This document shows positions 35,607 through 38,082 of a DNA stretch of 64,000 nt, in pieces (position 1 is the stretch's first letter; every line of letters starts with the position of its first letter). The notes under the pieces were generated by a model. That model made no database searches and was not told where the DNA came from. It saw nothing but the letters and a program-made list of their open reading frames with translations. The stretch is from a virus. The stretch covers positions 1-64,000 of IMG/VR virus record IMGVR_UViG_3300027733_000042, one strand, 5' to 3'. The translations under genes and the position numbers were made by a program.

Positions 35607-37271
35607 TTAGTATGATGTTTTTGGTCGAGGTACTATTGATTTTATTTGAATATTTACTGAGCCTAGACCTTCTTCTGAAAGTCCAGCAGAGTATGCATTT
35701 CCAAAACGATCTGAGAATCCTCCTCGAATTAATGGAAGTTCAGCGTCGATTGTCACAATATCATTAAATTCATCAAGTCCTGTGTCTACTGCATTTGGAT
35801 TTGCAATTTTTGCAAGTTCATTCTTCTGTGAAACGAGGTTGACTGATACTGAATCGACTCCATTTACCCCTTCGATAATTTTAATTAAATCACTCTTTGG
35901 AACACGATTTCTACGAGTATTTTGAATAAAGAACGTGCCTAATGCATTTAATATATCGCGTTTAATAATATCAGTGTCAATATCGTCAAATACGATAACT
36001 GACGTATTAATAACATAATTACTAGGAATCGGATCAAGTATCTTAATATCAGTTGAAATAAGTTTTGATCCAGATTTTTCAATATATCTAAGAAGTTCGT
36101 TCTTTTGATAGTCAGTTAGGATAAATCGGGCAAGGTCAGCATTAAAGTAATCTTGGCCAGTACTAAAGGTTTTTCTAATATCTGGAATCAAGAATAGATT
36201 AAGTACACGGTTATCGACTGCATCAAGAAATACAGTGATAACTGAGAATAGTTTAAGTTTTCGAAGTAAGACTTCATAATGATCAGCATTAACTAGAGCA
36301 AAGCTTTTTGACATTCTTGGAGCAATAAGTCGAGTTAAGTTAGAATCTTCAGGATTTGACCCAAAAAATGGCGGATGTGTTGTTATAACATCAATATAGT
36401 CATTTAGATTAATTTCATCGCCTAAAATACTAAAACCGGTATCGATGAATTCAAATTGAACTTTACCTGGATCATTTGTTCTAATATTTCCATTTGCTCC
36501 CTCAGTAACAAGATATTCTACTGAGATATCTGAACCGAAACTTGGAATTTTGCCATAATTGCCGTTTCCAAAATAAAGATCGATTCCGCTAGTTATTCCA
36601 GTTTTAACCATGTATGCATTATCGCCCCTAGGCATGTCTAACATAGAATCATATTTGGTCCATTTTTCACCATTTACATAAACATTTACATAGAAATTAT
36701 CTACATAGAAATTTTGTGGGCTACCGATTGAGAAACTATCGATTGCGACACCCTTTGCGGTAACTGTCTGAGTTTCAACGACTCCTTGACGAATTTGTAA
36801 TTTCGTACCATTATCCTTGCCGCTAAATGAAAATTTAACTTCATCTTGTGGAAGATCTAAGATATATGTTAGTCCATTATTTAGACAGCGCAGCCTGGTT
36901 AAATTTGGAACAATTACAAAATCATATTGTGCGTCAACTGCAGCTACGTTCGTAGAAAGCTTTATCTCACCGATTGCTGAGACTGCACGACTTGCATTGT
37001 GGCCAGTAAGACTGGCTAATGAATAAACTGAGGTTAATCGAGTTGCTTCATTTATATTAAGTTCAGTAATTGCATCTTCAATATAGTAGAAAACCAGCTG
37101 AGTTAAATTCTCTACAACTAAGAGTAATTGTCCGAAAGGTGACGCTGCCGTGAAAACTACACGGTTCTGATCAAATTTACTGGTTAAGTAATTTATTGAC
37201 TGACCGAGTATATCCTCGACATAAATGCTAAGTCGTGTAAAGACTTTAAAATTTTCAGTTGCACTAGTCAT
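35607..37271 (-). CDS. Baseplate wedge protein (T4 gp6/baseplate J-like)
   Basis: 554 aa. The order is a helical N-terminus (SIYVEDILGQSINYLTSKFD), a beta-rich centre with ITSGIDLYFGNGNYGKIPSFGSDISVEYLVTEGANGN near 235-272, and a C-terminal part with VPKSDLIKIIEGVNGVDSVSVNLVSQ near 460. The FGNG...G..P..G..I.V.Y..T.G..GN signature is typical of gp6/J-type wedge proteins. These form the ring that drives baseplate sheath triggering, so the phage probably has a contractile tail. A perfect late box TATAAATAAT precedes it. Confidence 0.85.
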   Translation of the reverse strand: MTSATENFKVFTRLSIYVEDILGQSINYLTSKFDQNRVVFTAASPFGQLLLVVENLTQLVFYYIEDAITELNINEATRLTSVYSLASLTGHNASRAVSAIGEIKLSTNVAAVDAQYDFVIVPNLTRLRCLNNGLTYILDLPQDEVKFSFSGKDNGTKLQIRQGVVETQTVTAKGVAIDSFSIGSPQNFYVDNFYVNVYVNGEKWTKYDSMLDMPRGDNAYMVKTGITSGIDLYFGNGNYGKIPSFGSDISVEYLVTEGANGNIRTNDPGKVQFEFIDTGFSILGDEINLNDYIDVITTHPPFFGSNPEDSNLTRLIAPRMSKSFALVNADHYEVLLRKLKLFSVITVFLDAVDNRVLNLFLIPDIRKTFSTGQDYFNADLARFILTDYQKNELLRYIEKSGSKLISTDIKILDPIPSNYVINTSVIVFDDIDTDIIKRDILNALGTFFIQNTRRNRVPKSDLIKIIEGVNGVDSVSVNLVSQKNELAKIANPNAVDTGLDEFNDIVTIDAELPLIRGGFSDRFGNAYSAGLSEEGLGSVNIQIKSIVPRPKTSY

Positions 37272-37289: not shown

Positions 37290-37299
37290 ATTATTTATA
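37290..37299 (-). promoter_or_regulatory. Late promoter box TATAAATAAT
   Basis: An exact T4-type late box, 18 nt upstream of the gp6-like gene. It would drive the gp6, terminase and sigma region. Confidence 0.7.
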
Positions 37300-37366
37300 T
37301 CAGCAAAAACTTTTTTAAGCTTTTCTATATAATACTCAGGATAGATAATATAGATCTAGCAAATAT

Positions 37367-37749
37367 GGGGTCGCCCGGTTTTGACAGGTAATTTAGTTCT
37401 TTGAAGTGCAGGCCGTGTTAGTATTGGAAACACGTTAATCACCTATATACATTTTAAATGACGAAAAGTCAACTTTCACTTTCGAAGACGCAATGTCTTT
37501 CGTTGGTGCTGATTACGCAGTATCTGCATAGTCACTAGGTCGCACTTACCTGTTTTAAAAAATGTGCACCATCAAGGCACTACGGATAGACGTGAGGCAT
37601 ACAGTAAGCCGTTATGAGAGTGAGAAGGAAACTCATTATAAACTGTCCAGAAAACCAAAAATTTTGTCTGTTTCGAAAAATAGACTAAGCTTGTGAATGA
37701 ATTTCATCGATCAGTTATTTGGACGAGGGTTCGATTCCCTCCGACTCCA
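37367..37749 (+). ncRNA. ssrA: tmRNA
   Basis: The ends form a tRNA-Ala-like domain: acceptor GGGGTCG (37367-37373) with CGACTCC (37742-37748), including the G3-U70 pair read by alanyl-tRNA synthetase, T arm GAGGG/TTCGATT/CCCTC and discriminator A. The tag frame starts most likely at GAC 37460, after AAAT, by analogy with Bacteroidota tmRNAs. It runs 23 codons to TAG 37529-37531. The tag begins DEKSTFTF and ends GADYAVSA. The end differs from the usual YALAA degron. CCA is not encoded. Downstream sequences up to 37700 would form the pseudoknots. It rescues stalled ribosomes and tags their products. Confidence 0.93.
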
Positions 37750-37774
37750 CGGGAATACGTCTAAGTGGTGAATT

Positions 37775-37810: not shown

Positions 37811-37820
37811 TATAAATAAT
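37811..37820 (+). promoter_or_regulatory. Late promoter box TATAAATAAT
   Basis: An exact T4-type late box followed by AAAAAAA, 20 nt upstream of the lipoprotein ATG. Confidence 0.7.
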
Positions 37821-37840: not shown

Positions 37841-38023
37841 ATGAAAAAGATGATCGTGTTATGCATTGCAATGTCTATCTTGGCTTCATGTGGAAGTAAC
37901 AGTGCGCCTGCAACAACAGCGACCGTTGATTCTACTAAAGTTGCGGTTGACTCAAGTGCTTGCTGCCCAGCAGTAGACACTGCAAAAACAGTTGACACAG
38001 CGAAAGTTGTGAAAGTAAAGTAA
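37841..38023 (+). CDS. Small lipoprotein, 60 aa
   Basis: 60 aa. A signal sequence KKMIVLCIAMSILASC has a clear lipobox LASC, with lipidation expected at C17. The mature part is Thr/Ala/Val-rich, with a CC pair and a repeated VDTAKTVDTAK end. It would sit in the host membrane on the periplasmic side or be surface exposed. Phage lipoproteins often block superinfection, or aid lysis; the role is open. It is alone in a unit with its own late box and terminator. Confidence 0.8.
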   Translation: MKKMIVLCIAMSILASCGSNSAPATTATVDSTKVAVDSSACCPAVDTAKTVDTAKVVKVK

Positions 38024-38074: not shown

Positions 38075-38082
38075 TATAAATA
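38075..38082 (+). promoter_or_regulatory. Late promoter box TATAAATA
   Basis: An exact match directly after the terminator and 17 nt before the ATG at 38100. Confidence 0.7.

Follow-up and report, generated by a model that had tools for sequence, protein, structure and literature searches.

A conserved extended tmRNA tag in a T4-like, probably flavobacterial phage and its viral relatives

The DNA analyzed here, a 64,000-nucleotide stretch of viral sequence referred to as the window, carries a real one-piece tmRNA (ssrA) gene at positions 37367 to 37749 (+), counted from acceptor base 1 to discriminator A73. It is ordinary as a tmRNA and unusual in its tag. What sets it apart is not its AVSA end alone but an extended tag that is conserved among phages and was not found in the searched hosts. 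An extended tag of almost this sequence recurs in many other phages, a pattern suggesting that phages have evolved a protein label of their own. The window comes from a virus record of 90,786 bases that encodes a T4-type terminase and a baseplate wedge protein; this is a T4-like phage, probably of flavobacteria. Named relatives of its baseplate protein (24 to 38% identity) belong to Prevotella, Tenacibaculum, Flavobacterium, and Chryseobacterium phages and to uncultured huge phages; Sphingomonas phage PAU provides a further one. When compared with the host tmRNAs that were fetched, the 3′ part of the gene aligns best with mostly flavobacterial ones (67 to 79 bases at 76 to 82%). The initial annotation was right in proposing a Bacteroidota-type host. 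Since the host collection compared is biased to Bacteroidota, a flavobacterial host is supported rather than proved.

ARAGORN calls the tmRNA at 37367 to 37750 (+), with the tag DEKSTFTFEDAMSFVGADYAVSA and its stop encoded by gene positions 94 to 165. The Rfam model RF00023 matches 37367 to 37752 over its whole length (model positions 1 to 374) with 94.2 bits (E = 2e-35; gathering score, 47). Reading of the sequence together with the Rfam alignment places the 5′ strand of the acceptor stem, GGGGTCG, at 37367 to 37373 (+), its 3′ strand, CGACTCC, at 37742 to 37748 (+), and the T-arm, GAGGG-TTCGATT-CCCTC, at 37725 to 37741 (+). G37369 and T37746 form the G3-U70 pair, and A37749 is the discriminator. 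The main parts of a tmRNA are present, as had been annotated. G3-U70 occurs in 71/72 unique phage and 137/137 host tmRNAs. Because the bases after A37749 are CGG, the window tmRNA lacks an encoded CCA; in this it is like most hosts (CCA is encoded in 17/137 host and 25/72 unique phage tmRNAs). A PK1-like pseudoknot at 37414 to 37447 (+), read by eye and consistent with the Rfam alignment, consists of stem 1 (CGTGTT/AACACG, 37414 to 37419 with 37429 to 37434) and stem 2 (TATTGG/CCTATA, 37422 to 37427 with 37442 to 37447, one mismatch).

The tag frame occupies 37460 to 37531 (+) and comprises 23 codons (37460 to 37528) and the stop codon TAG (37529 to 37531). By eye, its resume codon, GAC at 37460, lies 12 nt past the PK1-like pseudoknot, and the preceding bases, TTTTAAAT, put T at −5 and A at −4. 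Among the unique phage tmRNAs, −4 is A in 72/72 and −5 is T in 69/72, counts that retain some ARAGORN tags judged to be mis-started (e.g., APVSLMGL, or AEYAVAA for L158); the corresponding figures for host tmRNAs are 137/137 and 119/137. The window therefore has what marks a tmRNA: a tag frame with a stop, downstream of PK1 as read by eye, and A at −4. In the relatives, third-position changes keep the same frame open. A short tag with a resume codon further downstream, the outcome that the initial annotation named as contrary to its 23 codons, is ruled out by the fit of −5T and −4A to GAC and by the full frame that the relatives share, and DEKSTFTFEDAMSFVGADYAVSA is the right reading.

The contrast with bacterial tags is clear. 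RF00023 matched in 147 of 148 Bacteroidota genomes, 141 of them over the cut-off, and ARAGORN called 137 of the 143 Bacteroidota loci in the host tmRNA sample, leaving 6 uncalled. Host tags have 9 to 10 residues in 132 of the 137 calls (131 end in LAA or MAA and 1 in YAA), compared with 23 in the window, so the tag is indeed longer than those of Bacteroidota, as first claimed, and about twice their length; the other five calls, of 10 to 33 residues, are implausible and look like wrong frames or starts. The window tmRNA resembles host tmRNAs (with tags such as GENNYALAA and ADDYSYAMAA) in its one-piece standard RF00023 form, its G3-U70 pair, its A at −4, and its GNN-kind resume codon, but its 23-residue tag ends in AVSA where the 9- to 10-residue host tags end in LAA, MAA, or YAA. 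The last part of the tag is host-like (ADYAVSA in the window and NYALAA in hosts), and the extension amounts to 13 to 14 extra residues. The tag core pattern matched in 0 of 395 Bacteroidota genomes and 0 of 4 named-locus genomes. The N-terminal pattern DEKSTFTFEDA, which alone covered the other phyla and is narrower, matched no stretch in genome_contigs. A tag common to the phage and a bacterial host was rejected on these 0 matches in the bacterial genomes searched. A similarly degenerate pattern for GENNYALAA, the commonest flavobacterial host tag, matched only 7 viral stretches.

In viral_contigs, the degenerate 3′-half tag pattern AMxFVxA[DE]xAV matched 92 stretches, and in all 92 the tag core S[ST]x[TS]FEDAM[SA]FVGADxAVAA lies in a short open reading frame (ORF). 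None of the 92 falls inside a long ORF, and we rejected the core as a piece of an ordinary protein. Eighty-six were recognized as tmRNA, 75 by ARAGORN and 11 of the 13 that ARAGORN missed by Rfam; of the rest, 4 run off the end of a contig or locus, and neither tool made a call for L348 or L357. Two further pattern sets, which overlap with this one and with each other and, like it, draw on several near-duplicate contigs, add 15 stretches with the N-terminal half of the tag (8 recognized by ARAGORN, 5 by Rfam, and 2 cut) and 26 with a second long tag, GNT..W...N (22 recognized by ARAGORN and 1 by Rfam, 2 cut, and 1 false match, L386, within a long ORF). Pattern-matching contigs are up to 288 kb long. 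By tblastn, a 22-residue tag had no match in phages and plasmids, so short a query being a weak test, and against named phages blastn gave no match with the window tmRNA region and short pieces only with that of a relative. In L348, a group I intron match (positions 2 to 207, −; 65.5 bits) lies a few hundred bases downstream of the long-tag frame and possibly marks an intron-bearing phage tmRNA.

Both long-tag families occupy the same syntenic site, which is marked by the divergent baseplate wedge gene (35607 to 37271, −; PHROG 219, E = 3.1e-27); this gene adjoins the tag in 39 of 118 loci, from both families. Among 63 loci fetched via the baseplate protein and 80 fetched via the terminase, a tmRNA occupies this position in several and is missing from others. 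Tags at this site in relatives include DEKSTFTFEDAMSFVSADLAVAA, DEKSTFTFEDALAFVGADLAVAA, and DEKSTFTFEDAMSFVSGEVAVAA and, read by eye, a shorter one in L011, GNSFVGAEMAIAA, and that of L049, GNTTSFWSLVNAPVSTPAGTELVEA; ARAGORN called a family of tags comprising GNTSIWDVINGFVGAPATEVEYAVAA, GNTNFWSLVNQGVNTPVAEELLAA, and GNTVNFWSLVNDTVNSPVAEELLVA. On the other side of the window tmRNA is a small lipoprotein-like ORF (37841 to 38023, +; NF050142, 20.3 bits, below the cut-off of 50). In L009, L010, and other relatives without a tmRNA at the site, the baseplate gene and the small lipoprotein-like ORF lie close together, which points to gain or loss of the tmRNA as a cassette. The window gene itself looks mosaic, since its 5′ part and tag are 90 to 92% identical to L003/L169 while its 3′ part has its best match in the L011 tmRNA (76% over 181 bases). 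In the close relatives L004, L047, and L169, the 3′ end of the tmRNA differs from that of the window: as read by eye, its T-arm takes the unusual form GGGGC-TATCGTAT-GCCCC, and CCA is encoded.

The initial annotation treated the changed tag end as the key feature. That the tag lacks ALAA and ends in AVSA is real, but apart from this record the end was seen in a single contig, which has an identical tmRNA (L013/L066/L164), and is therefore possibly limited to one population. Among 52 unique sequences, 49 tags end in AVAA and one each in AVSA (the window), AVMA, and KLAA; that of L159, outside this count, ends in AVTA. As judged from these sequences, AVSA is a private variant in an AVAA-ending family that includes close relatives, and it is the smaller part of the finding; the larger part is the conserved extension upstream. 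The annotation's interpretation is thus supported in part, the biggest difference from hosts being the 13 to 14 conserved extra residues. The window (VSA) and the family consensus (VAA) both depart from the canonical ssrA degron end, LAA or, in hosts, also MAA. SspB-type reading of the tag end is known from E. coli. A tag that stabilizes products or reroutes them, be it toward a phage structure or out of reach of host proteases, is quite improbable; the last three residues do set the strength of the E. coli tag, LVA, AAV, and ASV being degraded differently according to the portion of PMC9097571 at hand, but the family consensus AVAA is a plausible degron, and neither stability nor a target finds support here.

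Codon usage within the extension suggests selection on the tag peptide. Over the 8 codons before AM, which lie outside the constraint of the 3′-half pattern, 30 unique sequences differ 660, 584, and 1,717 times at codon positions 1, 2, and 3. The codon differences number 984 synonymous and 1,005 nonsynonymous, where random single changes give 420:1,740 (a ratio of ∼0.25 by arithmetic), and these figures are only suggestive because the pairs are related and nonindependent and because some of the 52 sequences came from the N-terminal pattern, which constrains these codons. They bear on the reading of the tag as an ordinary host-like ClpXP degron, with the extension a tolerated spacer, AVSA or AVAA about equivalent to LAA, and a tmRNA that boosts ribosome rescue only. 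At its end the tag looks like those of hosts (DYAVAA beside NYALAA), bacterial tags vary in length and sequence (PMC9097571, in the part available), and some relatives keep short tags, namely, GNTKLAMAA (L080), DETQYASLAA (L145), and, by eye, DDEIDFRMAA of Lak phage. A spacer, however, would not need the same 15 to 20 residues across many phages with changes biased to third positions, and we regard this explanation as rather unlikely. It is extremely improbable that the gene is a decoy or a decayed host-derived tmRNA without function: phages can carry tmRNA-like fragments, that of DS6A being little beyond the tRNA-like domain (PMC4131195, in the text available), but the anatomy here is complete, the frame is open, the tag appears to be under selection, and many phages share it.

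Conservation of the N-terminal part of the tag could partly reflect RNA pairing. Folding predicts a small hairpin, TGAC-GAAAA-GTCA, at the tag start (37459 to 37471, +), where it overlaps the resume codon, and the extension might be kept for the RNA, with the hairpin positioning the resume codon or shielding the frame and the peptide a by-product. Stems of ≥4 bp near the tag start occur in 34 of 35 unique long-tag phage tmRNAs, compared with 27% in shuffles (maximum, 46%), and in 50 of 96 host tmRNAs, compared with 29%. Across 27 relatives, one of the five hairpin pairs swaps A-U (15 sequences) for U-A (9 sequences); the covariation score was reached by 1 of 500 shuffles, and 91.9% of cells are paired, compared with 82.6% in shuffles. 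Against this explanation, RNAalifold found no consensus structure among the relatives, the single covarying pair possibly reflects one event, the fold of the window tag region is just marginally better than those of shuffled sequences (z = −1.73), and the FEDAMxFVGAD part varies at synonymous positions. Single folds of the tag region were also unremarkable in three of five cases. We consider an RNA role of this kind improbable as the reason for the extension, and the tag-start hairpin is a lead, not a result.

The reading that we favor, with reasonable but far from full confidence, is that of a working tmRNA that borrows host SmpB and carries, in the extension of its tag, a phage-specific signal for recognition or degradation. 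Maturation would fall to RNase P and the CCA-adding enzyme of the host, a host synthetase would alanylate the RNA through G3-U70, and during infection host SmpB would deliver it to ribosomes that have stalled on non-stop or broken mRNA. We infer from the anatomy and the known tmRNA cycle that Ala plus DEKSTFTFEDAMSFVGADYAVSA would be added to unfinished proteins. The gene, its frame, the conservation of the tag, and its absence from the searched hosts are shown by the sequences, and what is proposed for function, reader, and degradation rate is inferred. The 13- to 14-residue extension may then serve as a recognition element for a specific unfoldase or adaptor, encoded by either host or phage, and through such a reader the tagged products would be handled on the phage's terms. 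The V and S of the tag end could in addition weaken reading by the LAA-specific ClpXP of the host.

The distribution of partner proteins was surveyed in the phage records. No SmpB was found in the 19 records that make up the window's group (its own record and 18 related ones); 5 of 25 further records have it (G433, G434, Lak-B5, LR756504, and LR756501). The window's 90.8-kb record, which may be partial, yielded no SmpB, ClpP, or Clp unfoldase, and we found no reader of the window's own tag. ClpP is encoded in 9 of the 25 long-tag records and in none of 14 additional long-tag fragments; of 9 records lacking a long tag, 2 have it. A tie between ClpP and the long tag was rejected (9/25 versus 2/9; Fisher P = 0.68, with the 14 fragments left out). 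In G001 and G002, the closest relatives of the window phage, the ClpP-like proteins best match a head-maturation protease model. AAA_2 domains occur in 10 of 25 long-tag records. Five are in two-domain proteins of 657 to 664 residues, and the one tested has its best match in ClpC (PDB 3j3t, 754 bits), its “ggigf” region aligning with the “VGF” segment of ClpC, which we take to be the ClpP-docking loop. The other five are MoxR/GvpN-like, as judged from one tested, and the MoxR-like proteins of 402 aa (L437 to L439) were rejected as ClpX, their best NCBIfam match being GvpN below the cut-off. Lon (PF05362) was found in none of the 25 long-tag phage records, many of which are fragments; a phage-encoded Lon was rejected as the tag reader on this basis, and the reader could still be a host Lon.

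Two 270-kb records, G433 and G434, encode a long-tag tmRNA, SmpB, ClpP, and a ClpC-like unfoldase without an N-domain together (loci L375, L376, L426, L427, L435, and L436), and because their ClpP and ClpC-like sequences are identical, we count them as one phage population. The G434 ClpP matches bacterial ClpP (NF011091, 254 bits against a cut-off of 361; PDB 3q7h, 170 bits). Judged by its gene content, this phage potentially carries a whole set for trans-translation and proteolysis. Large Bacteroidota phages might by extension maintain a private tag-and-process pathway parallel to host ClpXP, with a dedicated phage unfoldase-protease or adaptor, for which the ClpC-like protein and ClpP of the 270-kb phages would be candidate readers. 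We regard this as rather unlikely; if true, host-derived stalled products would be sorted by tag from other proteins in infected cells.

The extended tag of Mycoplasma and Mesoplasma and its relation to Lon are reportedly the subject of work by Gur and Sauer in 2008 and by Ge and Karzai in 2009, going by their titles. The extended ssrA tag of Mycoplasma and Mesoplasma florum is read by Lon (PMC9097571, PMC9382460). It resembles the phage tag in being extended, with Lon as its specialized reader, but it ends in NYAFA, is unrelated in sequence, and has no counterpart to that reader in the 25 long-tag phage records. It is the nearest precedent, by analogy a parallel in principle and not a sign of family membership. 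Phage tmRNA genes are known from mycobacteriophages, Bacillus phage G, OM43 phage Melnitz, and huge phages (PMC4131195, PMC9004378, PMC7162821); these share with the window a tmRNA gene in a lytic phage, but no conserved extended tag is described for them in the parts available, and the Melnitz tmRNA is two-piece where that of the window is one-piece. A survey that covered 18,146 phages found tmRNA in 402 and distinguished 133 unique structures (PMC9004378), and some huge phages have both tmRNA and SmpB (PMC7162821). Chryseobacterium phage MA9V-3 has a tmRNA and a protein annotated as ClpX (PMC13120357), and Maribacter phage Panino has ssrA (PMC11590407). In a database of 97,179 tmRNA sequences, the commonest tag length is 10 residues and the shortest is 2 (PMC11915505).

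The uncultured huge phages LR756504 (636 kb) and LR756501 (735 kb) also have long tags, DNVNSFEQSILNELFAPVEMAVAA (by eye) and GDYKMNAEDMMSIPTSLTGKVATESFVEDLVLA (by eye from a sub-threshold match), respectively. Their sequences differ from that of the window tag, and both phages carry SmpB, which was not found in the window's record. The match in LR756501 (L579) scores 21 bits and contains a readable 33-codon tag ending in VLA. We found no report of a conserved extended phage tag in the open-licence literature. Why phages carry tmRNA is unsettled, with maintenance of the hijacked machinery or protein recycling having been proposed (PMC9004378, in the text available). A tag conserved in phages and absent from the searched hosts poses the direct question of what binds the peptide. 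If it has a reader of its own, it would be the second extended-tag case after Mycoplasma, degradation tags would be re-codable by viruses, and an orthogonal degron would be at hand for engineering in Bacteroidota.

Upstream of the tmRNA, a weak candidate −10 box, TATAAT, can be read at 37328 to 37333 (+); upstream of the 72 phage tmRNAs, this word occurs 15 times, compared with a shuffle mean of 13.6, i.e., without enrichment. The pair TTTG-TAnnTTTG, presumably the primary promoter of Bacteroidota, precedes 9 of the 72 phage tmRNAs, compared with a mean of 0.4 in simple shuffles, and the window tmRNA is not among the cases found by eye. T4-type late promoter words, TATAAATA, were read by eye at 37292 to 37299 (−), 37811 to 37818 (+), and 38075 to 38082 (+), upstream of the neighboring genes, with none upstream of the tmRNA. 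Other RNA features were noted in the window and among the relatives. A weak tRNA match of 103 bases (32 bits) at 136 to 238 (−) has no ARAGORN call, and a tRNA cluster at 2497 to 2783 (−) contains two tRNAs with CAT anticodons and one tRNA-Asp. A large tRNA array in a long-tag phage has a GOLLD RNA at its middle (L323, 5021 to 5439, −; 292 bits).
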